DNA of 64,000 bases, taken from contig NZ_AP024646.1 of the NCBI RefSeq assembly GCF_019977235.1, positions 5,208,001-5,272,000 of the forward strand, in the 5' to 3' direction. Positions 3,400 through 15,086 of this stretch are shown piece after piece (the stretch's first letter is position 1; each line of letters begins with the position of its first letter). Below the pieces are notes generated by a model. That model was not told the DNA's origin. It saw nothing but the letters and a program-made list of their open reading frames with translations, and ran no database searches. The position numbers were made by a program, and so were the translations under genes. This stretch comes from Arthrobacter sp. StoSoilB5 (GTDB lineage: Bacteria; Actinomycetota; Actinomycetes; Actinomycetales; Micrococcaceae).

Positions 3400-4056
3400 C
3401 TACCCCACCAAGTTCTCCGCCGCACCATTCATGTGCGAGATGATGGTCTCGCGGGCCTTGGCGGCATTTCCGGTTTCGATCGCAGCAACAATGTCGTGAT
3501 GCCGGCCCACGCTCATGTTCCGGGTGGCGCGCTCCAGCCCGGCGAACATGATGGACATCCGGATGGAACCCTCCAGGGATTCCCACGAGTGCAGCAGCGT
3601 CTCATTCCCGGAGAGGCGGCAGAGGGTGCGGTGGAATTCGAGGTCGGATTCGATCCGTTCCTCCAAGGATGACTTCGCGGCCTTGTCCATATTGTCGACG
3701 GCGGCACGCAACTGCGCGAGCGCGGTCTCCTTATCCGGCATCTCGCTAAGGGTCCGGGCGGCCAGGGATTCAAGGACTCCACGGACAGCGAAGATGTCCC
3801 GGATCTCCTTGACGTCGAGGTGCCGCACGGAGAGCCGACCCCGGGCACCGGCGGAGACCAGGCCTTCTTGCTCCAGTTGGCGCAGGGCTTCCCGGAGTGT
3901 GCCTCGGCTGATCTGCAGCATTTCAGACAGTTCGGTTTCCACGAGGTGCCGCCCAGGCTCCAGCTCACCGCTGGTGATCGCACTACGCAGAGCGGCGAGT
4001 GCCTGTTCGCGCAGGCTCTTCTTCTCCAGTCCCAGCAGGGATGCGGTGGCGGCCAT
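3400..4056 (-). CDS. GntR-family transcriptional regulator (FadR/FCD subgroup)
   Basis: The 218-residue protein has an N-terminal winged helix (about 10-75, with ETELSEMLQISRGTLREALRQLEQEGLV) and a C-terminal FCD domain. Metal-ligand positions are visible as DLEFHRTLCR, GRHHDIVAAI and ISHMNGAA. It is the last gene of the leftward transketolase/transporter set, after a terminator-like hairpin and an operator copy at 4099-4112. The same operator type occurs three times in the divergent promoter at 7532-7622, so this is the likely local repressor of the sugar module and of itself. The effector, probably a sugar or sugar phosphate, is unknown. Confidence 0.85.
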   Translation of the reverse strand: MAATASLLGLEKKSLREQALAALRSAITSGELEPGRHLVETELSEMLQISRGTLREALRQLEQEGLVSAGARGRLSVRHLDVKEIRDIFAVRGVLESLAARTLSEMPDKETALAQLRAAVDNMDKAAKSSLEERIESDLEFHRTLCRLSGNETLLHSWESLEGSIRMSIMFAGLERATRNMSVGRHHDIVAAIETGNAAKARETIISHMNGAAENLVG

Positions 4057-4098
4057 GGTGTGTCCTCAAATTCTATGGGCGACTGCTAACAGTCTGGT

Positions 4099-4112
4099 GT
4101 TAACTGTTGATA
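4099..4112. promoter_or_regulatory. Predicted GntR operator upstream of its own gene
   Basis: GTTAACTGTTGATA reads TATCAACAGTTAAC on the other strand and matches the TGTCAACAGTCAAC sites at 7532-7622 at 11 of 14 positions. It lies 43 bp before the regulator start codon, consistent with autoregulation from a separate promoter. Confidence 0.6.
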
Positions 4113-4120
4113 CTACGGGC

Positions 4121-4161
4121 AGTGGTGCGGGACCGGCAGCAACTGCCAGTCCCGCACCACT
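4121..4161 (-). terminator. Hairpin at the end of the transketolase operon
   Basis: AGTGGTGCGGGAC (4121-4133) pairs with GTCCCGCACCACT (4149-4161) over 13 bp, with an inner GGCAG/CTGCC stem. It directly follows the stop of the transketolase C-terminal subunit. There is no strong T-tract, so attenuation or transcript protection is also possible. Confidence 0.6.
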
Positions 4162-4175
4162 GTCGGAACAATAAT

Positions 4176-5198
4176 TCAGCCCAGTTCAGCCAGCACCTTG
4201 GCTACGATCCGGTCCACTGACAGGCCGTATCGCTCGTGCAGCGTTGGCAACGCGCCGGCGTCGAGGAACTGGTCCGGAAGCGCGATGGGAACCACGCGCT
4301 TGCCCAGGCCGGCGGTTACGACGGCGGACGCTACAGTTTCGAACAGACCGCCAACAACCGTGTGGTTTTCCAGCGTGACGGCCAAGCGGTCAGTGTTGAT
4401 TTCGGCCAGCACGGTTGCGGAGTCGAACGGCTTGATGGTTGGCGTGTGCACTACGGCGACATCCACGTTGTGCTTGGCAAGTGCATCTGCAGCCTGCAAG
4501 GCACGCATGGTCATCAGACCTGAGGATACGAACACGACGTCGTTGCCGCCTCGCAGGACCTTGGCCTTGCCGAGCTCGAACTTGTAGTCGTACGCGTCCA
4601 GGACAGTGGGTACGTTGCCGCGCAGGAGTCTCAGGTACGTTGGTCCATCCGAGGCCGCGAGCTGCGGAACAGCCTGCTCGATGTCCACGGAGTCGCAGGG
4701 ATCCACGATGGTCAGGTTGGGCATGCCGCGGAAGATCGCCATGTCCTCGGTGGCCTGGTGGCTCGGTCCGTAGCCGGTGGTCAGGCCGGGAAGCCCGCCA
4801 ACAATGTTGACGTTGAGGTTCGGCTCGGCGATATCCAGGCACAGGAAGTCGTACGCACGGCGAGCGGCGAACACCGAATAGGTGGACGCGAACGGAATGA
4901 GTCCCGTCTCGGCCATGCCCGCTGCGGCTCCGAAGAGGAGCTGCTCGGCCATACCCATCTGGAAGTACCGGTCCGGGAAGGCCTTGGCGAAAATGTGCAT
5001 GTCCGTGTACTTGCCAAGGTCCGCCGTGAGTCCAACAATCCGCGAATCGGCCTCGGCAGCCTTGACCAGCGCGTGCCCAAACGGCGCCGAAGTCGTCTTT
5101 TGGCCGGGGTCCGCAAAGGACGCGATCATGGCGGAGGTTTTCAGCTTCGGCTTGGCCGCCGAACCTGCCGAACCCGCCGCCGTCGTAACTGTGCTCAT
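4176..5198 (-). CDS. Transketolase-like C-terminal subunit (pyrimidine-binding and C-terminal domains)
   Basis: The 340-residue protein corresponds to the second half of a transketolase. The conserved glutamate that activates thiamine diphosphate is in GMAEQLLFGAA (Glu85), followed by a YDFLCLDIAEPNLNVNIVG region, a GPSHQATED motif and a C-terminal domain. The ATG at 5198 overlaps the stop of the N-terminal subunit gene by 4 bp (ATGA), so the two are translationally coupled and should form one enzyme transferring a two-carbon ketol unit. Split transketolases are common in dedicated sugar pathways, including apulose-4-phosphate transketolase AptAB. The substrate here is not decided by the sequence. 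Confidence 0.85.
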   Translation of the reverse strand: MSTVTTAAGSAGSAAKPKLKTSAMIASFADPGQKTTSAPFGHALVKAAEADSRIVGLTADLGKYTDMHIFAKAFPDRYFQMGMAEQLLFGAAAGMAETGLIPFASTYSVFAARRAYDFLCLDIAEPNLNVNIVGGLPGLTTGYGPSHQATEDMAIFRGMPNLTIVDPCDSVDIEQAVPQLAASDGPTYLRLLRGNVPTVLDAYDYKFELGKAKVLRGGNDVVFVSSGLMTMRALQAADALAKHNVDVAVVHTPTIKPFDSATVLAEINTDRLAVTLENHTVVGGLFETVASAVVTAGLGKRVVPIALPDQFLDAGALPTLHERYGLSVDRIVAKVLAELG

Positions 5199-6085
5199 GC
5201 TGAAGCCGTCCCTTCGTATCCTGCGGTCAGCTGATCGCGGCAGATCTGCCATTCGTGTTCTTCGATGCGCATGAAGTGCGCCTTTTCGCGGGTTTCCAAG
5301 AGCGGCACGCCGCGTCCAACTTTGGTGTCGCAGAGGATCACGGATGGCCGCCCGGTAGCCGCTGACTGAGAACCAATGTTGTCGAACGCTGCCAGCAGCG
5401 CACCGACGTCGTTCCCGTCCACGCGCTGGGTGTACCAACCGAACGCTTCCCACTTCTCGGTGACCGGTTCGGTGCGCAGCACGGTATCCGTGGCGCCGTC
5501 GGCCTGGAGGGCGTTGATGTCCACCATTGCAGTGAGGTTCCCGAGCTGGTGGTGGTGCGCACCCATGGCGGCCTCCCACGTGGATCCCTCATCCAGCTCA
5601 CCATCGGAGAGGAAGTTAATCACGCGGGACGCGGAGCTTTGGAGACGCAGGCCCAAAGCCATTCCGACGGCGATCGTCAGGCCGTGGCCCAGCGAACCGC
5701 CGGAGATCTCCATGCCCGGGGTGTAGGTGGACATGCCGGACATCGGGAGGCGGGAATCGTCGGAGCCGTACGTTTCGAGCTCAGCTACAGGCACGATTCC
5801 GGCTTCGGCCAACGCCGCGTAATGGCCGATCGCGTAGTGGCCCGTAGAGAGAAGGAAGCGGTCGCGTCCCTCCCAGTGCGGGTCTTCGGCACGGTACGTC
5901 AGCTGGTCGGCGTAGACGGCAGCCAGCATGTCAGCGGCGCCGAGGGCTTGGCCAACGTAACCCTGGCCTTGGACCTCGCCCATGGTCAGGGCGTGGTGGC
6001 GGATGCGGTAGGCGGCGGCACTGATGCGCTCTACCCGCTCGGCCGCGGGAGCGGCCGGAGCCGTTTCAACTGATGAGAGAGTCAC
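5195..6085 (-). CDS. Transketolase-like N-terminal subunit (diphosphate-binding domain)
   Basis: The 296-residue protein carries the thiamine diphosphate and Mg site: STGHYAIGHYA (81-91), GSLGHGL (130-136) and a DGELDEGSTWEAA segment (161 onward) followed by the N of VDIN. It matches the first third of a normal transketolase. It is translated just before and coupled with the C-terminal subunit, and follows the MHS transporter by 62 nt. This is not the housekeeping tkt, which is normally a single chain. Confidence 0.85.
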   Translation of the reverse strand: MTLSSVETAPAAPAAERVERISAAAYRIRHHALTMGEVQGQGYVGQALGAADMLAAVYADQLTYRAEDPHWEGRDRFLLSTGHYAIGHYAALAEAGIVPVAELETYGSDDSRLPMSGMSTYTPGMEISGGSLGHGLTIAVGMALGLRLQSSASRVINFLSDGELDEGSTWEAAMGAHHHQLGNLTAMVDINALQADGATDTVLRTEPVTEKWEAFGWYTQRVDGNDVGALLAAFDNIGSQSAATGRPSVILCDTKVGRGVPLLETREKAHFMRIEEHEWQICRDQLTAGYEGTASA

Positions 6086-6147
6086 TGGTTTCCTTCCGGA
6101 GTCGGGCGCGTGCCGATGGGGAGTACGCGCCCGACGTCGATGGCTGC

Positions 6148-7485
6148 TTAGGCGTTTACCGTCTGGGGAGTTTTGCTGGCGGCTTCTTCGGCGAGCGTAC
6201 GCTCACGCTTGCCCCAGGTTTCCCGGGTGATCAGCGCTGCCCACAGGCCGATGGCTGCGTAGAAGCTGAACAGCAGCGCCGGTCCGATCCAGCCCATGCT
6301 GACGAACAGCAGGGTGGTGATGAAGGGGGTGAAGCCGGAGACCATGGCAGAGATCTGGTAGGACAGCGAAGCTCCGGATGAACGGGTCTTGGCTTGGAAC
6401 AACTCCGGGAACCAGGCGCCCTGGGCGCCGGCGAGGGAGTTCTGGCACACGGCATAGGCGACGACGATGGTCGCGATGATCAGCAGGAACAAGCCAGTGT
6501 TGACCAGCATGAACATCGGGATGCCGAAGACGACGGCGAAGGCGGTGGACCAGATGTAGACGGGACGGCGACCAACTTTGTCTGTGAGCTTTCCCCAGAA
6601 GTATGTGGCGAAGATACCGATGCCGGCTGCAACGCAGAGCGCCACCAGGGTTTCAGTCTTGTCCGCCAGCTTGTTGGTGTGCAGGTAGGAAATCATGTAG
6701 GTCACGGACACTGCGTAACCGGCGGTTTCAGCAATACGGAGGCCGATGCCACGGACGATGTTGCGCCAGTCGGTCTTGATGACATCCACAATGGGAGACT
6801 TCACGATGTCGCCCTTGGATTTGACGTCCTCGAAGACCGGCGACTCGGGAACCTTGGAGCGGATGATGAGGCCCACGGCAACCAGCACGATGCTCGCGAG
6901 GAACGGTACGCGCCAGGCCCATTCACTGCCGAGTCCGACGCTGCTGAGGAAGACGAGGTTTGCAAGCAACAGACCAACCGGGAAGCCGGCCTGCACGATT
7001 CCCGTGAACTGGCCCTTCTTCCGCCATGGCGCGTGCTCGTAACTCATGAGAATGGCGCCGCCCCACTCGGCACCGAAGGCCAGGCCTTGGATGACTCGTA
7101 CGATCACCAGGAGCGCGGGAGCCAGGAGGCCCACCTGCTGGTACGTGGGCAGCAGGCCGATAGCGAAGGTTGCCAGGCCCATCAGGATGAGCGAAGCCAC
7201 CAGGACCGGCTTGCGGCCGAGCTTGTCGCCGAGGTGGCCACCTATGATTCCGCCCAACGGACGGGCAGCGAAGCCGACGCCGAGGGTCGCGAAGGAGGCC
7301 AGGGTGCCAGTCACCGGGTCGGCGCCCGGGAAGAACGCTGTACCGAAGTACAGTGCAGCGGCTGTGCCGAAACCGATGAAATCGTAGGTTTCGATGACTG
7401 CGCCAACGCCCGAACCGACGGCGACGCGCTTTGCTTCCTTGGTTCCATGAACCGGACCACGCATGGTCAGAGCTTCATTGCTCAT
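6148..7485 (-). CDS. MFS transporter, metabolite:H+ symporter (MHS) type
   Basis: The 445-residue protein has twelve predicted helices and MHS features: IETYDFIGFG in helix 1, GGIIGGHLGDKLGRKPVL in the loop after helix 2, and RVIQGLAFGAEWGGAILMSYEHAP. It should import the substrate of the adjoining module by proton symport. MHS members usually carry organic acids or small polar compounds; some carry polyols. The ATG at 7485 was preferred to an upstream frame because AAAGGGAA precedes it and the extra 16 residues of the longer form overlap the operator DNA. It is the first gene of the leftward operon. Confidence 0.85.
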   Translation of the reverse strand: MSNEALTMRGPVHGTKEAKRVAVGSGVGAVIETYDFIGFGTAAALYFGTAFFPGADPVTGTLASFATLGVGFAARPLGGIIGGHLGDKLGRKPVLVASLILMGLATFAIGLLPTYQQVGLLAPALLVIVRVIQGLAFGAEWGGAILMSYEHAPWRKKGQFTGIVQAGFPVGLLLANLVFLSSVGLGSEWAWRVPFLASIVLVAVGLIIRSKVPESPVFEDVKSKGDIVKSPIVDVIKTDWRNIVRGIGLRIAETAGYAVSVTYMISYLHTNKLADKTETLVALCVAAGIGIFATYFWGKLTDKVGRRPVYIWSTAFAVVFGIPMFMLVNTGLFLLIIATIVVAYAVCQNSLAGAQGAWFPELFQAKTRSSGASLSYQISAMVSGFTPFITTLLFVSMGWIGPALLFSFYAAIGLWAALITRETWGKRERTLAEEAASKTPQTVNA

Positions 7486-7531
7486 TTGTGTATTTCCCTT
7501 TCGAAGAGTGAGGCGCTTCTTCGGCAACCCC

Positions 7532-7622
7532 ACTGTCGACAGTCAACATAATACGTCAACTGTGACCGAGGACACCAGCAATGTCAACAGTCAACTTCAA
7601 AGGTTGACTGTCAACAGTCAAC
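7532..7622. promoter_or_regulatory. Three GntR-type operators in the divergent sugar-module promoter
   Basis: Site A is the palindrome ACTGTCGACAGT (7532-7543) continued by CAAC. Site B is TGTCAACAGTCAAC (7582-7595). Site C is the 20-bp palindrome GTTGACTGTCAACAGTCAAC (7603-7622) with perfect 9-bp arms. All share a (T/C)GACAGT / ACTGTC(A/G) core also found at 4099-4112. They lie between the leftward transporter gene and the rightward isomerase gene, so one regulator can control both transcripts. Confidence 0.75.
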
Positions 7623-7689
7623 CCGGCTAACGTGGTCTCCATCACTAAGGCCTTCTCTGGCGAGGGCCCCAACTTGAGGATCAACGACG

Positions 7690-8532
7690 ATGTTCCATCA
7701 CCGACTGGGCTGTTCTTCCATCAGCTTCCGCCACCACGATTTGGAGACGGCCCTGAAAACAATGGGTGGCCTCGGCTTCGAAGAAATCGACCTTGGCGCG
7801 TTGCCCGGCGTTTGCGACCATGTGCCCTACGTACTGGACGCCGAGGCAGTGGGGGCGGTTGCCGCCGTCGTAAATTACTCGGGCCTGCGCGTCCGCTCGG
7901 TAAACGGCGATGTTGGGGACCTGAACGCAACGCTCGACGCCGGTGCGCAGGAAGCGCGCGATCGGCACCTTGAGATGCTGCTCGCCTTGGCGGCCAAGAC
8001 GGGTGCGAACGCTCTGGTCCTGCCGTGCGGCGCGATCGACCATGACCCCGTGAAGAGCTTGGAAGAGGACATCGACGCTGTGGCAGCTCAATTGATCCAG
8101 GCGTCTGCTCGCGCCAAAGAGGTCGGCGTCGAGCTGTGGACCGAATCCCTGCACTACTACCGGCTGTGCTGGAACACGGAACGCGCGCAACTGCTCGCAG
8201 ACCGCCTGGCCGGTTCGGACGTCGGAATCGTCATGGACTTCAGCCACATTGTGGCCTCTGGAGGCGACCCCGTGGACTTCGTTGATCGCTTCTCCGCCAG
8301 CATCAAACACGTCCACCTACGCGACGCCGTTTCGGCCACAGAAAACGAGCCGGGGAACATCAACCTCAGCATCGGCAATGGCAAGGCCGACTTCGCTGCC
8401 GGACTCGCAGCCCTGCGGGAAGTTGGCTACACCGGTCACTTCTCCCTGGAGCTCGAAACCCGGGACGTCACCCACGATGAACGCCCGGCAGGCGCAGCCA
8501 AGGCGGCCAGTTACATCACAGACCTCATCTGA
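7690..8532 (+). CDS. Sugar isomerase/epimerase of the xylose isomerase-like TIM-barrel family
   Basis: The 280-residue protein fits the AP-endonuclease-2-like TIM barrel. Candidate metal ligands are seen in ELWTES, VMDFSHIVAS, KHVHLRD and FSLELE. Such enzymes interconvert aldoses and ketoses or epimerise at C3; relatives include hydroxypyruvate isomerase, OtnI and D-apiose isomerase. It is the first gene of the rightward operon, 67 bp after operator C. Position and family suggest it makes the ketose that the downstream kinase phosphorylates. An epimerase role is the alternative. Confidence 0.75.
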   Translation: MFHHRLGCSSISFRHHDLETALKTMGGLGFEEIDLGALPGVCDHVPYVLDAEAVGAVAAVVNYSGLRVRSVNGDVGDLNATLDAGAQEARDRHLEMLLALAAKTGANALVLPCGAIDHDPVKSLEEDIDAVAAQLIQASARAKEVGVELWTESLHYYRLCWNTERAQLLADRLAGSDVGIVMDFSHIVASGGDPVDFVDRFSASIKHVHLRDAVSATENEPGNINLSIGNGKADFAAGLAALREVGYTGHFSLELETRDVTHDERPAGAAKAASYITDLI

Positions 8533-8564
8533 ACTTTTCCAACAACCACCATTCAAGGAGCACC

Positions 8565-9338
8565 ATGACCAACATCCAGCGCACCGCCGTCCTCACCGGA
8601 GCTACCTCCGATCGCGGCATCGGCCTGACCACCGCCCGCCGCTATGCCAACCAGGGCTGGGGCATTGCCATTCTGGACCTCGACGGCGAGAAGTCCGCCA
8701 AGGTTGCTGCCGAAATTGCCAACGAGTTCAACGTCCCTGCATTCGGCTACGAAATCGACGTTGCCAACGAAGCTTCCGTCACCGCAGCCCAGGCCGCCGT
8801 GGCCGCGGAAGTTGCCGCCGGAAACCTCCCGCCCGTCGGCGCCCTGGCCAACATCGCCGGCATTACGTCCCCCGTTCCTTTCCTGGAAACCACCCTTGAG
8901 CTGTGGCACAAGGTCATGGACGTCAACGCGACCGGCACTTACCTGGTCACCAAGGCCTTCCTTCCGGACATGATCGCCAACGGCTGGGGCCGCATCGTCA
9001 ACATGTCCTCGGTCTCCGCACAGCGCGGCGGCGGCGTGTTCGGCAAGGTCCCCTACTCCGCAGCAAAGGCCGCCATCCTCGGCTTCACCAAGGCACTCGC
9101 CCGGGAAATCGGCGATACCGGCGTGACCGTCAATGCCATCACCCCCGGCGCCGTGGACACCAACATCCGCGTCGGCAGCACCGAAGAACAGGAAGCCGCC
9201 ATCAACGCAGGCATCCCCTTGGGCCGCAACGCCACCACCGAGGAAGTTGCCGCCGTCATCACGTTCCTCTCCTCCGAGGACTCCGCATACCTGACCGGCA
9301 CCACCATCGACATCAACGGCGGCAGCCACATCCACTAA
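8565..9338 (+). CDS. Short-chain dehydrogenase/reductase (SDR)
   Basis: The 257-residue classical SDR has the TGATSDRGIG cofactor loop near the N terminus, NIAG, a serine in SSVSAQ and the catalytic YSAAK (Tyr164, Lys168). The Asp at the end of beta-2 (ILDLDGEK) indicates NAD preference. In the operon it probably oxidises a polyol to a ketose or the reverse. SDR polyol dehydrogenases serve D-threitol catabolism in mycobacteria, but substrate cannot be assigned from the motif alone. It follows the isomerase by 32 nt with an AAGGAG site just upstream. Confidence 0.8.
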   Translation: MTNIQRTAVLTGATSDRGIGLTTARRYANQGWGIAILDLDGEKSAKVAAEIANEFNVPAFGYEIDVANEASVTAAQAAVAAEVAAGNLPPVGALANIAGITSPVPFLETTLELWHKVMDVNATGTYLVTKAFLPDMIANGWGRIVNMSSVSAQRGGGVFGKVPYSAAKAAILGFTKALAREIGDTGVTVNAITPGAVDTNIRVGSTEEQEAAINAGIPLGRNATTEEVAAVITFLSSEDSAYLTGTTIDINGGSHIH

Positions 9339-9371
9339 TTCGAGCTGCTCGAAGGAAACCCAGGACCCACT

Positions 9372-11123
9372 ATGACCAGAATCTTCAACGATCCCGCCGA
9401 CTTCGCTGACGAAGCCCTCGCCGGTTTCTGTGACGCCCACTCGGACCTTGTCCGCCAGGTAGAAGGCGGCGCAGTCCGCCGCAGCCGCCCGGCAACTCCG
9501 AAGGTCGCCGTCATCACCGGCGGCGGCTCCGGACACTACCCGGCCTTCGCAGGCATCATCGGACCGGGCTTCGCTGACGGTGCCGTGGTGGGCAACATCT
9601 TCACTTCGCCCTCCACCCAGCAGGCCTACTCCGTGGCCAAGGCTGCCGACTCCGGCGCCGGCGTCGTCCTCACGTACGGCAACTACGCCGGCGACGTCAT
9701 GAACTTCGGCATGGCCACCGAACGCTTGAACGCCGAGGGTATCCCGGCAGAAAACGTGCTGGTCACGGACGACATCGCCAGCGCAGCCCCGCACGAGGCC
9801 GAGAAGCGTCGCGGGATTGCCGGGGACTTCGTGGTCTTCAAAGTCATGGGTGCAGCGGCCGAGGCCGGGCTCGACCTCGCCTCGGTGGTCCGTGTGGGAC
9901 GCAAGGCCAACAGCCTTACCAAGACCATCGGCACGGCATTCAGTGGTTGTACCTTCCCGGGGGCCGATCAGCCGTTGTTCCGTCTTCCCGAGGGGCAGAT
10001 GGGCCTGGGCCTGGGTATCCACGGCGAGCCTGGACTGTTCGATACCGAGCTGCCGTCCGCCGTCGAGCTTGGCCAGGAACTCGTCCGACGCGTGCTGGCT
10101 GAGACGCCGGAGTCCGGTTCAACGCGGCTGGCCGTGATCCTCAACGGTTTGGGTTCCACCAAGCACGAAGAACTCTTTGTCCTGTGGCGCACGGTGGCTC
10201 CCCTCCTCCGCGAGGCCGGCTACACGCTTGTCATGCCGGAGGTTGGCGAGCTGGTGACCAGCCTGGACATGGCCGGCGTTTCGCTGACGCTCACATGGCT
10301 GGATGACGAGCTTGAGCAGTACTGGACCGCTCCCGCGCTGACGCCGGCGTACCGTCGTGGGGCTGTTGGCTTCGAGGTTGCTTCGGCCAAAGACTCTGGG
10401 GTCGACGCTTCTGCCGCTGCCGCTGTTGACTACTCCGCCACAAGCGAATCGCGCGAATATGCTGCGCAATGCCTCTCCGCCCTGGACGCTACTGCCGACC
10501 TGTTGCGGGACTCCGAAGCAAAACTGGGCGACATGGACGCAATCGCCGGCGACGGCGACCACGGCCGCGGCATGGTCCGCGGATCCGCGGCAGCCCTCGC
10601 CGCGGCATCTGTTGCGTCCGAACGCGGCGCCGGAGCCGGCTCCGTGTTGATCGCCGCCGGTGACGCCTGGGCCGATAAGGCCGGCGGTACGTCGGGCGTC
10701 CTGTGGGGCGCCGGACTGCGCGCCTTTGGCGAGCGGCTGGGAGACGCAGAAACCCCGACGCCGGTGGTCCTCGCCGAGTCTATTCGCGCCTTCGCGGACC
10801 GCATCACCAGCCTTGGCAAGGCCGAGATCGGTGACAAGACAATGGTGGACGCGCTGCTGCCGTTCGCTTCCTCGCTTGAGGCCCTTATCTCTGCTGGCAC
10901 TGCGCCCGAGGATGCTTGGTCCGCTGCCGCGGCCGACGCTGCCAAGGCCGCTGCAGCCACCGCGGAACTTCGTCCCCTCAAGGGCCGAGCGAGGCCGCTG
11001 GCCGAGAAGAGCATCGGTACGCCGGATCCCGGGGCGACGTCGCTCGCCATGGTGTTTGCCGCCGTCGGGCCGCATTTCGCCGCAGTTCCTGTCACGGCAA
11101 GCAACTTCGCAACGAGCAACTAG
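9372..11123 (+). CDS. Two-domain dihydroxyacetone/erythrulose-type kinase (DhaK-DhaL fusion)
   Basis: The 583-residue ATP-dependent enzyme has a DhaK domain (about 1-330) with the GGGSGHYPAFAGIIG loop and His217 (GLGIHGEPG), the residue that binds ketose substrates covalently. A linker leads to a DhaL domain (about 365-570) with the DMDAIAGDGDHGRGM Mg-ATP motif. Single-chain kinases of this type phosphorylate dihydroxyacetone, and close relatives LerK and DerK phosphorylate L- and D-erythrulose. With an RpiB-like isomerase next in the operon, a tetrulose substrate is plausible. The gap to the SDR is 33 nt. Confidence 0.85.
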   Translation: MTRIFNDPADFADEALAGFCDAHSDLVRQVEGGAVRRSRPATPKVAVITGGGSGHYPAFAGIIGPGFADGAVVGNIFTSPSTQQAYSVAKAADSGAGVVLTYGNYAGDVMNFGMATERLNAEGIPAENVLVTDDIASAAPHEAEKRRGIAGDFVVFKVMGAAAEAGLDLASVVRVGRKANSLTKTIGTAFSGCTFPGADQPLFRLPEGQMGLGLGIHGEPGLFDTELPSAVELGQELVRRVLAETPESGSTRLAVILNGLGSTKHEELFVLWRTVAPLLREAGYTLVMPEVGELVTSLDMAGVSLTLTWLDDELEQYWTAPALTPAYRRGAVGFEVASAKDSGVDASAAAAVDYSATSESREYAAQCLSALDATADLLRDSEAKLGDMDAIAGDGDHGRGMVRGSAAALAAASVASERGAGAGSVLIAAGDAWADKAGGTSGVLWGAGLRAFGERLGDAETPTPVVLAESIRAFADRITSLGKAEIGDKTMVDALLPFASSLEALISAGTAPEDAWSAAAADAAKAAAATAELRPLKGRARPLAEKSIGTPDPGATSLAMVFAAVGPHFAAVPVTASNFATSN

Positions 11124-11132
11124 GAGGATCAC

Positions 11133-11591
11133 ATGCGTATCATTGTGGGCGCCGACGAAGCAGGCGTTGATTACAAAGACCAGATCCTGGCCGACCTCTC
11201 AGCGGACTCGCGGATCACCGAAGTGATTGACATCGGCGTGAACCGCGCGGACGAGGACTTCACCAAGCCCTACCCGTATGTGGGAATTGCAGCCGGTGAA
11301 ATGATCCGCGAGGGCAAAGCCGATCGGGCCATCCTGTTCTGCGGGACTGGGATCGGCGTGGCCATCGCGGCAAACAAGGTTCCGGGCATCCGGGCTACAG
11401 CTGCACACGATTCCTTCTCCGTGGAGCGATCCATTCTGTCCAACGACTGCCAGGTCCTCACCATGGGCCAGCGCGTTGTGGGCGTGGAGCTGGCCCGCCG
11501 GCTAGCCAAGGAATGGATCGGCTACGCGTTCGACCCCGAATCCGGCTCGGCCGCGAAGGTCAAGGTGCTCAGCGACTTCGAGGGCTGCTAG
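11133..11591 (+). CDS. RpiB/LacAB-family sugar-phosphate isomerase, possibly a tetrulose-4-phosphate isomerase
   Basis: The 152-residue protein has the RpiB fold signature FCGTGIGVAIAANK with catalytic Cys70, and the start follows a TAGGAGGATCAC ribosome site. Ordinary RpiB opens with a GADHAG or SDHAG motif; here it is GADEAG, so the usual His is Glu. Loss of that His is also seen in tetrose-phosphate isomerases of the EryI type, which have GDSAG. With the erythrulose-type kinase this suggests conversion of a ketotetrose phosphate to D-erythrose 4-phosphate. A ribose/allose phosphate role remains possible. Confidence 0.75.
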   Translation: MRIIVGADEAGVDYKDQILADLSADSRITEVIDIGVNRADEDFTKPYPYVGIAAGEMIREGKADRAILFCGTGIGVAIAANKVPGIRATAAHDSFSVERSILSNDCQVLTMGQRVVGVELARRLAKEWIGYAFDPESGSAAKVKVLSDFEGC

Positions 11592-11628
11592 GCCTTCGGG
11601 GCGCTCCTGCCTCGCGATAAACTGGACC

Positions 11629-12456
11629 ATGACCGGTGCCCGTGCCCGTCTGCTGGCTTGGTCCTTCGCCCTGGCCGTCCTCCTTTCAGGCTGTTCGTCC
11701 GCGACCGGCGTGGACGAGGCCGCCTCCAACCAGCCGCAACCAGTCGAGTCCGCGCATCCAGTGGCCGGGGAAGTCGCCCTCGCCACTCAAGCACCCCCGC
11801 AGGCTGCCCCCAGCCCAACTTCGGTGCCGGTACCAGTCCCGGCACCGGTGGGAACGCCTCAGCCGTACTCCCTTAACCTCTACCAAGAGGGCGACTTCGT
11901 ACCGCAGTACACGTTCGACTGGTGCGTCGCGGCGAGCATACAGATGACGCACAACCTCATCGATGACACGGGCGGCGGTACCTGGGCCGGCCGCGCCCAG
12001 CAGAGCGAACTGTGGGAAATGGCGCGAATGAGGTCCTCCGATTCATTCAACGGCGCCAACCCCTTCGGTTGGGCAGCGGTGCTGACCGCCGTTGGGATGG
12101 GTCCCTACGAAGTTGTCAGCATCGCCGACTACGAGGATGCCCTGCAGGCTGCGGCGCGCGCCATGGCCAGTACGGGCCGCCCCGTTGGGCTGGTCATGTG
12201 GAGTGGCCGCCACGCCTGGGTAATGAGCGGATTCGAGTCACTCGGCGATCCTGCCCAATTCCCGGAAATCCCGGTTACCGGAGTACGCGTCCTGGATCCG
12301 CTGTACCCCTATGGGAGTGGGCAATGGGGGCCATCACCTGCCCCCAACAGCCTGCTGACCCCGGATCAGCTGGCGACACAATTCGTGGTCCGGGAGCCGC
12401 GACGCTGGAGCAGCGCGCTCCCCACCGGGTACCTGATGGTGCTTCCCCGGCGCTAA
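11629..12456 (+). CDS. Secreted lipoprotein with a C39-like cysteine peptidase domain
   Basis: The 275-residue protein has a signal peptide with lipobox LLSGC (Cys22), a Pro/Ala-rich stalk (50-80) and a papain-like domain. The expected triad is visible: Cys99 in FDWCVAASIQM, His195 in SGRHAWVMSGF and Asp223 in VLDPLYP. It should sit on the outer face of the membrane. C39-like proteins cleave peptides or are inactive relatives; no substrate is evident. It starts 37 nt after rpiB in the same direction, but content suggests a separate function. Confidence 0.65.
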   Translation: MTGARARLLAWSFALAVLLSGCSSATGVDEAASNQPQPVESAHPVAGEVALATQAPPQAAPSPTSVPVPVPAPVGTPQPYSLNLYQEGDFVPQYTFDWCVAASIQMTHNLIDDTGGGTWAGRAQQSELWEMARMRSSDSFNGANPFGWAAVLTAVGMGPYEVVSIADYEDALQAAARAMASTGRPVGLVMWSGRHAWVMSGFESLGDPAQFPEIPVTGVRVLDPLYPYGSGQWGPSPAPNSLLTPDQLATQFVVREPRRWSSALPTGYLMVLPRR

Positions 12457-12500
12457 CCGGTCGCCGTGCCCTGCTCATAGCACGGCCCGGCGGGATCGGT

Positions 12501-13124
12501 TTATGAGCCGCCTGGGAGTCCGCTAGCGACCGCATGGGACAACAAGGCCCTCGCTGTCCACCGCATCGAGGCCACTGCGTCCTCACGGCTAAGGCCCCCA
12601 ACATCGGTCAGCCAGACCAGGGACTCGATGCCTATGGCACTTCGGATGGCCAGTACCAGCTGATGAAGGTCCTGATCTGTCATTGTCTTTTGCATTGGGG
12701 CAAGCGCTTCGGTGATCCAAGCTATGGCCCTGCCCTGCCGGAGCGGAAGGCTACGGCCTTCACCGATTGTCTCTTCAAGGGAAAGCCGAAGCATGGTTCG
12801 TTGCTGTGCTTCCGTCTCAATAATGATCTTGAGGAACTCGACCACTACGGCGTCCAGCCGCTCCGCCACGCCCTCTGGCGGCGATTCCGGAAGGAGGGAT
12901 GTTCGCGCGGTCTCAGGATGGGCGGCGGCCAGTAGCTCCCTCTGCCCGGAGAAATACCTGTAGGCAGTACTCCGCGGGATCCCTGCCGCTTGGGCGGCTT
13001 CATCCACTGTGGGAGAGACGCCGGACGCGATCAGGGAACGTGCTGCCCCAAGGAGGGTATCCAGCGTACGGCGCTTTTGACCGGTCCGACCAACGTCAAC
13101 GTAGGCTCTTGACATACCACTCAT
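12501..13124 (-). CDS. TetR-family transcriptional regulator
   Basis: The 207-residue protein has a TetR DNA-binding domain (about 15-65, PTVDEAAQAAGIPRSTAYRYFSGQRELL) and a divergent C-terminal ligand domain. It is divergent from the cupin gene with a 67-bp shared promoter containing a clean palindrome at 13140-13161, so the cupin gene and itself are the obvious targets. The effector is unknown. Confidence 0.85.
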   Translation of the reverse strand: MSGMSRAYVDVGRTGQKRRTLDTLLGAARSLIASGVSPTVDEAAQAAGIPRSTAYRYFSGQRELLAAAHPETARTSLLPESPPEGVAERLDAVVVEFLKIIIETEAQQRTMLRLSLEETIGEGRSLPLRQGRAIAWITEALAPMQKTMTDQDLHQLVLAIRSAIGIESLVWLTDVGGLSREDAVASMRWTARALLSHAVASGLPGGS

Positions 13125-13139
13125 GGTACATGAGTCTTG

Positions 13140-13161
13140 TTATGAGACATACGTCTCATAA
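13140..13161. promoter_or_regulatory. Predicted TetR operator between tetR and cupin genes
   Basis: TTATGAGAC (13140-13148) and GTCTCATAA (13153-13161) are perfect inverted arms separated by ATAC. A second inverted element TACCA-CTCA-TGGTA lies at about 13115-13128, overlapping the regulator start codon. Both are in the divergent intergenic region. Confidence 0.7.
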
Positions 13162-13191
13162 GTCTTCCTACCACGCATCGAGGCGAGCATC

Positions 13192-13698
13192 ATGGAGACG
13201 ACGAAAGCGGCATCAGCAATCATCCGGCAGCCAGGCGAAGGCGCGAGGCGCTGGTTCTTCGGCGGCGGGGTGCACACATGGAAGGCGACGGGAGACGAGA
13301 CGGCAGGCGCGTTCCTCCTGTTTGAAGACGAGATGTCCCTCAACAAAGTCACACCCATGCATACCCATCCCGATTCCGACGAGACCATGTACATATTGGC
13401 CGGAGAGATCCTGATGAACATGGACGGTGAGGAGCATCGCGTCGCCGCGGGCGGAGTGACCATCGCACCGCGCGGCGTCCCCCACGCCTTCAAAGTTCTT
13501 CAGGACGGAACCCGCGTTTTATGCCTCCACACGCCAGGCAGCACGCAGGCCTTTTACGACGGCGCAAGCGAACCTCTCGGCACCAACGGCGAGGCTCAGG
13601 CGGTGGATTTTGACCGCATCAGGGAATCAGGACGTGTGAATGGCGGCATCGAAATCGTGGGCCCTCCCCCATTCCCGCAGGCCGGGCCCCGCGGCTGA
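13192..13698 (+). CDS. Cupin-domain protein
   Basis: The 168-residue single-domain cupin has metal ligands His57, His59, Glu64 (MHTHPDSDETMY) and His98 (GVPHAF), the usual 3-His/1-Glu set. Single cupins include small-molecule dioxygenases, isomerases and quercetinase-like enzymes. The TetR pairing suggests a response to a small, perhaps aromatic or flavonoid, compound, which is inference. It ends 2 nt before the convergent dnaB stop. Confidence 0.8.
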   Translation: METTKAASAIIRQPGEGARRWFFGGGVHTWKATGDETAGAFLLFEDEMSLNKVTPMHTHPDSDETMYILAGEILMNMDGEEHRVAAGGVTIAPRGVPHAFKVLQDGTRVLCLHTPGSTQAFYDGASEPLGTNGEAQAVDFDRIRESGRVNGGIEIVGPPPFPQAGPRG

Positions 13699-13700
13699 AT

Positions 13701-15086
13701 CTAGAACCCGCCCCCACCGCCGGCATCGCCAGCCATGTTGGCGAAACGCGAGTAGTGGCCTTGGAACGCCACGACGATGTCTTTGGTGGGGCCGTTACGG
13801 TGCTTGGCGATGAGGATGTCGGCCTCGCCAGCACGTGGCGATTCTTTGTCGTAGACGTCTTCTCGGTGGAGCAGGATGACCATGTCGGCATCCTGCTCGA
13901 TGGAACCGGATTCACGGAGGTCGGACACCATGGGTCGTTTGTCCTGACGCTGTTCGGAACCACGGTTCAGCTGCGACAGCGCAATGACGGGAACCTGAAG
14001 TTCCTTGGCGAGCAGCTTGAGGGCACGCGAGAACTCGGAGACTTCCTGCTGGCGGGACTCCACTTTCTTGCCCGAGCTCATCAGCTGGAGGTAGTCGAGG
14101 ATCACGAGCTTGAGGTCATGCTGCTGCTTCAGTCGGCGGCACTTTGCCCTGATTTCCATGAGCGACATATTGGGGCTGTCGTCAATGAAGAGCGGGGCGT
14201 CGTTCATGCGGCCCATGGTGGTGGCGATCTTGGACCACTGCTCGTCCTTGATAGTGCCCTTGCGAAGGTCCTGCAGCCCGATGGTGGCTTCGGCTGAGAG
14301 CAGACGCATCGCGATCTCGTTCCGGCCCATTTCGAGGGAGAACATGACTGTGGCCAGGTTGTTCTTGATTGCGGCGGAGCGGGCGAAGTCCAACGCGAAC
14401 GTGGACTTACCGACCGCAGGACGGGCGGCGATAACGATCATCTGCCCCGGGTGGAGGCCGTGGGTCAGTTCGTCTAGCTCGTAGAAACCGGTGGGAACGC
14501 CAACCATGCCTTCGCCGCGATGGCCGGAAGCCTCGATCTCGTCCACAGTGGACTCCATGACGTCCTTCAACGCCACGTAGTCTTCGGCAGTGCGCTTTTC
14601 AGCAACCGCGTAGACCTCGGCCTGTGCCTGGTTGACGAGGTCTTCCACTTCGCCATCCTGGCCGTAGCCCATCTGGACAATCTTGGTGCCGGCGTTCACG
14701 AGTCGGCGCAAGACTGCGCGCTCTGCGACGATCTCGGCGTAATAGCCTGCGTTGGCGGCCGTGGGAACGGTTTGGATGAGCTCGTGCAGGTAGGCCGGTC
14801 CGCCGATCCTGTTGATCTCTCCGCGCTTGGTCAGCTCATCGGAGACCGTAACGGCGTCGGCAGGTTCGCCGCGACCGTAGAGGTCAATGATCGACTCGTA
14901 AATGGTCTCGTGGGCGGGACGGTAGAAGTCGTGGCCACGGACGATTTCGACGACGTCGGCGATTGCGTCCTTGGACAACATCATGCCGCCAAGGACTGAC
15001 TGCTCGGCGGGGATGTCCTGCGGAGGTTTCCGGCTCGAGTCCGAAGAGCGTGCGCCCTCGATTGAGTCCAAGTGCGTAACTGACAA
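13701..15086 (-). CDS. dnaB: Replicative DNA helicase DnaB
   Basis: The 461-residue protein has the N-terminal domain starting PPQDIPAEQSVLGGMMLSKDAI, then the RecA-like core with Walker A ARPAVGKST (Lys227), Walker B VILDYLQLM and the arginine-finger region. Length is normal and no intein is present. DnaB is the hexameric helicase that unwinds DNA at the replication fork. In many bacteria it directly follows rplI; here rplI is 15 kb away on the same strand. The 626 bp upstream of dnaB are rich in DnaA boxes. Confidence 0.97.
   Translation of the reverse strand: MSVTHLDSIEGARSSDSSRKPPQDIPAEQSVLGGMMLSKDAIADVVEIVRGHDFYRPAHETIYESIIDLYGRGEPADAVTVSDELTKRGEINRIGGPAYLHELIQTVPTAANAGYYAEIVAERAVLRRLVNAGTKIVQMGYGQDGEVEDLVNQAQAEVYAVAEKRTAEDYVALKDVMESTVDEIEASGHRGEGMVGVPTGFYELDELTHGLHPGQMIVIAARPAVGKSTFALDFARSAAIKNNLATVMFSLEMGRNEIAMRLLSAEATIGLQDLRKGTIKDEQWSKIATTMGRMNDAPLFIDDSPNMSLMEIRAKCRRLKQQHDLKLVILDYLQLMSSGKKVESRQQEVSEFSRALKLLAKELQVPVIALSQLNRGSEQRQDKRPMVSDLRESGSIEQDADMVILLHREDVYDKESPRAGEADILIAKHRNGPTKDIVVAFQGHYSRFANMAGDAGGGGGF

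Follow-up and report, generated by a model that had tools for sequence, protein, structure and literature searches.

A private split transketolase with a rebuilt active site in a conserved, self-contained sugar-type module of Actinomycetota

Eight intact open reading frames (ORFs) occupy positions 3400–11591 of the window, by which we mean the whole 64-kb stretch of DNA analysed, taken from the single-contig 5.3-Mb genome of Arthrobacter sp. StoSoilB5. Families assigned by Pfam and NCBIfam scans describe two divergent sets of genes, on the minus strand those for a GntR/FCD regulator, the two subunits of a dedicated (‘private’) transketolase and an importer of the major facilitator superfamily (MFS), on the plus strand those for a TIM-barrel protein, a short-chain dehydrogenase/reductase (SDR), a fused DAK-family kinase and an RpiB-family isomerase (Table 1); the nearest relatives of these proteins are from Paenarthrobacter and Arthrobacter. 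An earlier note, made from the letters of this DNA, had listed the same genes, and the ORFs and family matches bear out its list and coordinates for all eight, apart from the importer start, which probably lies at 7485: an ORF extended to 7533 would enter the operator at 7529–7546. Its proposal of a self-contained, co-regulated module of sugar or polyol type is likewise supported: the module is real, conserved and coherent, and the transketolase is clearly its new element.

The two transketolase subunits have between them the thiamine diphosphate (ThDP)-binding, pyrimidine and C-terminal domains of an ordinary transketolase (Pfam); their active site has been rebuilt (residues in E. coli numbering, our own labels L and G denoting loci and genomes). 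In the N subunit, His26 is replaced by Tyr and His100 by Ser in 33/33 family rows, removing two histidines of the ordinary pentose phosphate transketolase that are both present in AptA of the D-apiose pathway and in the housekeeping transketolase that the host genome also encodes. Among 27 other relatives from a phylum sample (L105–L131), 26 have His26 and L105 alone has Tyr26, together with Ser100; position 100 is His in 23 of the 26 relatives besides L105 (pairwise alignments). In the C subunit, S37, Y64, L136 and Y143 stand where E. coli has R358, S385, H461 and D469, while R193 corresponds to a retained R520. Across the C-subunit family (n = 34), S385 is always Tyr, H461 always Leu and R520 always kept (34/34 each), and the R358 equivalent is Ser, Pro or Ala in 32/34 and Arg in 2/34, leaving R520 as the only consistently retained member of the phosphate-binding set R358, S385, H461 and R520. 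The corresponding residues in the 26 control relatives (L105 apart) are Ser385 in 21, His461 in 22, Arg358 in 21 and Arg520 in 23. Judged by alignment, the invariant changes H26Y, H100S, S385Y and H461L replace donor and phosphate contacts, and the invariance of the pocket within the family argues for specialisation rather than decay.

Several of these substitutions have engineered counterparts. With propionaldehyde, E. coli H26Y is reported to give 88% (R) and D469Y 68% (R), as against 58% (S) for the wild type, so that the H26Y change reverses stereoselectivity (PMC3657141), and H100L and S385Y belong to engineered variants whose use of donor or acceptor is changed (PMC10787763). The rebuilt active site points to a sugar-cutting step that may not yet have been described. 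A distant Tyr26/Ser100 transketolase, encoded by a single ORF with the C part ahead of the N part, was also seen in L132 (6506–19404), where its neighbours are two SDRs, a DUF4432 protein, a Gfo/Idh protein and the ATPase, with two ABC domains, of an ATP-binding cassette (ABC) importer.

Table 1 Features of the module and their positions in the window
Feature	Position	Strand	Basis
GntR/FCD (FadR-type) regulator, 218 aa	3400..4056	-	Pfam FCD 2.2e-25, GntR 1.2e-13; homolog in 35/39 loci
Weak operator-like half-site TTAACTGTTGATA 5' of the regulator gene	4100..4112	.	By eye; >4 mismatches to the palindrome
20-bp inverted repeat (hairpin) 3' of the C-subunit gene, between it and the regulator gene; resembles a terminator but lacks a T run	4120..4162	-	
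Transketolase C subunit, 340 aa, pyrimidine and C-terminal domains	4176..5198	-	Pfam Transket_pyr + Transketolase_C
Transketolase N subunit, 296 aa, ThDP-binding domain	5195..6085	-	Pfam Transketolase_N
MHS-family MFS importer, 445 aa counted from the inner ATG	6148..7485	-	TIGR00883 4.4e-104
Operator region, divergent promoter	7529..7621	.	Three related sites
TIM-barrel metallo-isomerase/epimerase-like protein, 280 aa	7690..8532	+	Pfam AP_endonuc_2
SDR, 257 aa	8565..9338	+	Pfam
Fused DAK1-DAK2 kinase, 583 aa, predicted erythrulose kinase	9372..11123	+	Pfam Dak1+Dak2, NCBIfam, tree
RpiB-family isomerase, 152 aa, predicted D-erythrulose 4-phosphate isomerase	11133..11591	+	Pfam LacAB_rpiB; active-site residues

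The module is not a one-off. Scanning GTDB genomes with the TIM-barrel protein yielded 39 related loci from Arthrobacter-type, mycobacterial, Nocardiaceae, Pseudonocardiaceae and other Actinomycetota, and the module thus recurs across several families of the phylum. Counted over these 39 loci, with losses at contig ends scored as misses, the TIM barrel and SDR are present in 39, the MFS importer in 37 (the other two are cut by contig ends), the regulator in 35, the transketolase C and N subunits in 33 each (L015 partial), the kinase in 25 and RpiB in 25 with two further remnants. Arthrobacter-type loci retain the order regulator–C–N–importer/isomerase–SDR–kinase–RpiB, and gene order is rearranged in the loci of Pseudonocardiaceae, Agrococcus (L037) and Microbacterium (L038).

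All 39 module genomes encode the private transketolase, 33 within the locus and six elsewhere. The six outlying copies belong to the same subfamily (58–85% identical) and have Tyr26 and Ser100 in 6/6 cases; for the copy in the L030 genome the search reported one TGA. Separation in L012 and L018 is probably due to contig breaks, and the truly unlinked copies belong to four loci (L030, L032, L033 and L036). Against a phylum background in which a homologue above 300 bits occurs in 3/396 genomes (next best 220 bits), with both non-window genomes among those three also encoding the TIM-barrel protein, the transketolase is tied to the module. Unlinked copies adjoin an MFS gene in G018, G013 and G675, an SDR gene also in G675 and a regulator gene in G012. 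Two of the unlinked transketolase loci, L145 (6186–7091 and 18046–18999) and L146 (762–6778), lie near genes that recall the use of four-carbon acids: a 3-hydroxyisobutyrate-dehydrogenase-like gene, an SBD_N/NBD_C kinase, PdxA, TctA and a TIM barrel that shares 59% identity with its counterpart in a second cluster of the host genome, described below. The N-subunit gene runs 4 bp into the C-subunit gene, stop and start codons being combined as ATGA, and N and C are separate genes in related loci as well, which together rule out a frameshift as the cause of the split.

The two operons are separated by 204 bases containing three related copies of a 16-base ACTGTCGACAGTCAAC-like sequence, at 7532, 7580 and 7607. 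Compared with the palindrome TTGACTGTYRACAGTCAA, the site at 7529–7546 has three mismatches and that at 7577–7594 four, and the best site, at 7604–7621, is a perfect 18-bp palindrome, TTGACTGTCAACAGTCAA. At three mismatches or fewer the window holds two sites versus 0.03 expected, and in the whole 5.3-Mb genome the 7604 site alone lies within 0–2 mismatches. Genome-wide, up to three mismatches are found at four places (two here, two elsewhere) and a reversed-pattern control gives three; lone three-mismatch sites are therefore at chance level, and the operator evidence rests on the perfect site and on the clustering. Upstream of the TIM-barrel gene, a site within one mismatch of the palindrome occurs in 27/39 related loci and a site within two in 31/39; on the regulator side a site with three to four mismatches occurs in 9/39. 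Five Pseudonocardiaceae loci (L032, L033, L035, L036 and L039) have no site within four mismatches 5' of the TIM-barrel gene, and their regulator, 50–54% identical, is placed elsewhere. That one set of operators governs the module, as the earlier note had it, thus holds, with three site copies in one divergent region. Support for a local repressor that has operators of its own is good; the GntR/FCD protein would repress both divergent operons through the sites at 7529–7621 and perhaps its own gene, the half-site TTAACTGTTGATA being a possible element of such autoregulation.

The kinase and RpiB genes come and go together, both lying beside the module in 25/39 loci and neither in 12, with an RpiB remnant alone in two. 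These truncated RpiB genes, 3' of the SDR gene and with the kinase gene missing, lie at 10628–10822 in L016 and at 10619–10896 in L025, where loss is ongoing or complete. Joint presence and absence, together with the remnants, suggests that genes were lost from what was once an operon of four. Fourteen genomes have no local kinase, and 12 of them encode a fused DAK kinase elsewhere (E ≤ 1e-120), compared with 30/296 genomes of the class; the two exceptions are the metagenome-assembled genome G002, which has only a short kinase piece near an RpiB gene, and G003 (source of L016). Genes for a sugar-type ABC importer adjoin the distant kinase–RpiB pair in both mycobacterial loci scanned (L085 and L089).

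In a kinase tree, local kinases form two groups, one of Micrococcaceae and Pseudonocardiaceae (with a second G020 copy) and one of Nocardiaceae/Mycobacteriaceae that joins with the distant mycobacterial copies, a grouping by which the kinase–RpiB pair has probably been exchanged. The tree holds 35 of 41 extracted sequences (L054, L063, L064 and L073 were dropped as duplicates of module loci, L069 and L079 as short); a motif filter had kept out L028, L038, L052, L053, L070, L071, L078, L080 and L081, of which L052 duplicates L013 and L053 duplicates L017, and seven kinase-bearing module loci (L002, L004 and L006–L010) are not included. The motif GSGHYPAF is common to all 40 fused kinases printed, and the single split DhaK row reads GSGHEPLH. 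Depositors have named some close relatives D-erythrulose kinase and most of them dihydroxyacetone kinase; the Dak1+Dak2 fusion agrees with the kinase of mycobacterial-type tetritol catabolism at the level of family only.

In the RpiB-like protein Cys70 is retained, and the position of the ring-opening His of Clostridium thermocellum RpiB is taken by Ser103. As erythrose 4-phosphate is unable to form the usual ring, loss of this His fits a tetrose phosphate substrate. The best match in the PDB, RpiB of Coccidioides immitis, carries the same His-to-Ser change, and its authors suspect a shorter-chain substrate (PMC3212906); an RpiB-type gene also serves erythritol catabolism in Yarrowia (PMC5992420). 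The missing His and the pairing across loci support an earlier likening of the kinase and RpiB-like enzyme to the erythrulose kind. From these features, conversion of erythrulose to erythrose 4-phosphate appears the best lower half for the pathway, and a tetrulose end is likely.

The remaining enzymes are less specific. The importer matches the NCBIfam model TIGR00883 for metabolite/H+ symporters (MHS) at 349 bits, below the 443 cut-off, and the SDR is FabG-like and falls below the cut-off for all 25 NCBIfam models shown of the 225 matched. In the TIM barrel the presumed metal ligands E152, D183, H209 and E254 are invariant in 35 aligned sequences, and a confident structure model has matches that span epimerases, isomerases and dehydratases alike. 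The same genome holds a second cluster at ~1.147–1.155 Mb (L134 = G000:C1:1140000-1159500, 7246–14668) with the order GntR–TIM–DAK–RpiB–3HCDH–SDR–MFS and no transketolase. Its kinase, RpiB and SDR are 54%, 56% and 45% identical to those of the module; its own TIM barrel has 336 aa and no BLAST similarity to that of the module, and its MFS protein is nearest the galactonate transporter family, below the cut-off. This is perhaps an ordinary tetritol or tetronate module. Directly 3' of the module in the window, 11629–12456 encodes a predicted lipoprotein of 275 aa with no Pfam match at E ≤ 0.001, C39-peptidase-like by eye only.

From the observed gene content, operators, linkage, co-occurrence, residue changes and remnants we infer the reactions, their order and the class of substrate as follows. 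The module would be inducible and serve one small sugar, polyol or sugar acid, imported by the MHS-type symporter. The SDR and the metal-dependent TIM barrel would yield an unphosphorylated ketose, or turn a tetrose into a tetrulose, and the split transketolase would shift a two-carbon unit from or to an unphosphorylated ketose, before phosphorylation and not as a second pentose phosphate enzyme, with the resulting tetrulose handed to the kinase and RpiB-like enzyme. The upstream place of the transketolase is suggested by the rebuilt pocket together with its presence in every module genome found. A tetrulose-centred catabolic pathway with the private transketolase upstream, acting on an unphosphorylated ketose, is our best reading, to which we give about an even chance. 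A more specific version, that a natural Tyr26 transketolase subfamily makes or cleaves (3R) unphosphorylated ketoses such as D-erythrulose and feeds a D-erythrulose kinase and a tetrose-phosphate isomerase, giving a transketolase-first route to erythrose 4-phosphate without early phosphorylation, is offered more tentatively.

A number of observations weigh against this pathway. AptB has also lost several phosphate-site residues and is reported to act on phosphorylated sugars, so that such loss does not prove an unphosphorylated substrate; R520 is retained in the private transketolase, D469 is not conserved in the control relatives, and position 100 is other than His in 3/26 of them. L016 keeps the transketolase, TIM barrel and SDR in a genome with no fused kinase and an RpiB remnant only; either the core works there without kinase and RpiB or that locus is decaying. 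Many genomes with a trans kinase are related mycobacteria, so that their counts are not independent. The RpiB-like protein clears two generic models, TIGR02133 (ribose-5-phosphate isomerase) and TIGR00689, and scores 143 against a cut-off of 240 with the D-erythrulose-4-phosphate isomerase model NF051858, and MHS carriers mostly transport acids.

The closest competitor, which we think appreciably less probable, is plain tetritol catabolism of the M. smegmatis type, in which the SDR makes erythrulose from erythritol or threitol, the DAK kinase phosphorylates it, the TIM barrel and RpiB act as LerI and DerI, and the transketolase only passes erythrose 4-phosphate on. All four enzyme classes of the route EltD, LerK, LerI and DerI are present (PMC10733421), and the ABC importer genes beside the trans kinase–RpiB pair in mycobacteria suit it too. 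Set against this, an enzyme with Tyr26 and Ser100 throughout and without most phosphate-binding residues would be an odd choice for binding erythrose 4-phosphate and xylulose 5-phosphate; the genome has a housekeeping transketolase, and the second cluster, with a TIM barrel dissimilar by BLAST, has no transketolase.

Less probable again, and in our view unlikely, the symporter might import a four- to six-carbon sugar acid that the SDR and a TIM-barrel decarboxylase/isomerase would convert to erythrulose for the DAK kinase and RpiB, as has been proposed for D-apionate in other bacteria. The importer's family, most of whose members carry acids, and the four-carbon-acid-type genes near the unlinked G018 and G013 transketolase loci speak for such a route; those neighbours, however, lie up to 9 kb away and were seen in just two genomes, none of the module's own enzymes was recognised as acid-specific, and the transketolase would be left without a clear role.

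Improbable is an apiose-like route without early phosphorylation, in which the TIM barrel would turn D-apiose into apulose, the transketolase would split this to form dihydroxyacetone and the DAK kinase would produce dihydroxyacetone phosphate. It shares a split transketolase, SDRs and a sugar isomerase with the module, and H461 is lost in AptB as in the window C subunit. The earlier note's link to D-apiose is not supported on the two features compared, kinase and transketolase, and the RpiB-like enzyme would go unexplained: aplK of E. coli SE15, so named in PMC13001218, is ECSF_RS02700, annotated as an FGGY kinase and not DAK; AptA and AptB are 34% and 29% identical to the window subunits (BLAST 162 and 126 bits), which does not indicate orthology; and AptA keeps both histidines. 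That kinase and RpiB are mere bystanders for glycerol or dihydroxyacetone and ribose 5-phosphate, as their generic NCBIfam names and the dihydroxyacetone kinase label of most kinase relatives might suggest, is the least credible option in view of their pairing, the remnants, the missing ring-opening His and the availability, elsewhere in the genome, of a split DhaK/DhaL as a possible enzyme for dihydroxyacetone.

Were the tetrulose-centred pathway to hold, with an unphosphorylated and possibly (3R) ketose as substrate, the enzyme would be a natural counterpart of the engineered E. coli transketolase variants, and the module would join sulfo-TK as a second case of a sugar cut by a transketolase before phosphorylation. 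Recurrence in several actinobacterial families suggests a substrate that may be common in nature, and the module is directly testable through its local repressor–operator system; the transketolase is the part most worth specialist attention.

Among known systems, the split transketolase of Carboxydothermus hydrogenoformans (6yaj, 6yak) is the top-scoring solved relative of both subunits; its His26, His100 and the Arg, Ser and His at phosphate-site positions are replaced in the window. In the Brucella erythritol pathway (EryA, B, C, H, I), the RpiB-family EryI forms erythrose 4-phosphate, but erythritol is phosphorylated first (PMC5992420) and the scheme has neither a DAK kinase nor a private transketolase. 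The non-oxidative D-apiose pathway (AptAB, AplK, ApsI) also has a two-subunit transketolase private to a sugar cluster, with SDRs in the E. coli version, and differs in its kinase family and in the absence of RpiB from the E. coli cluster; E. coli apiose clusters are described as lacking ApsI (PMC13001218). The earlier view that the module is unlike both the tetritol and the apiose route was overstated, since the published M. smegmatis route for D-threitol, L-threitol and erythritol (EltD/DthD, LerK/DerK, LerI, DerI) already combines a dehydrogenase, an erythrulose kinase, an isomerase and an RpiB-family isomerase and ends at erythrose 4-phosphate (PMC10733421). The sections of that description drawn on here name no dedicated transketolase, and the MHS-type importer sets the window module further apart. 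The sulfo-TK pathway for sulfoquinovose (SqwGH, SqwI) pairs a two-subunit transketolase acting on an unphosphorylated ketose with a proposed PF02502 isomerase, a likeness by family description only; in the parts of its account used here, that isomerase is proposed for the released C4 unit, the substrate is sulfonated and no DAK kinase is described (PMC9594981). A PF00465 alcohol dehydrogenase of the SqwF type is absent from the eight module proteins (Pfam scan), and some sulfo-TK clusters themselves replace the PF00465 reductase (PMC9594981). By analogy, sulfo-TK would be the nearest precedent for the module, as a transketolase on an unphosphorylated ketose that works alongside a PF02502 isomerase.

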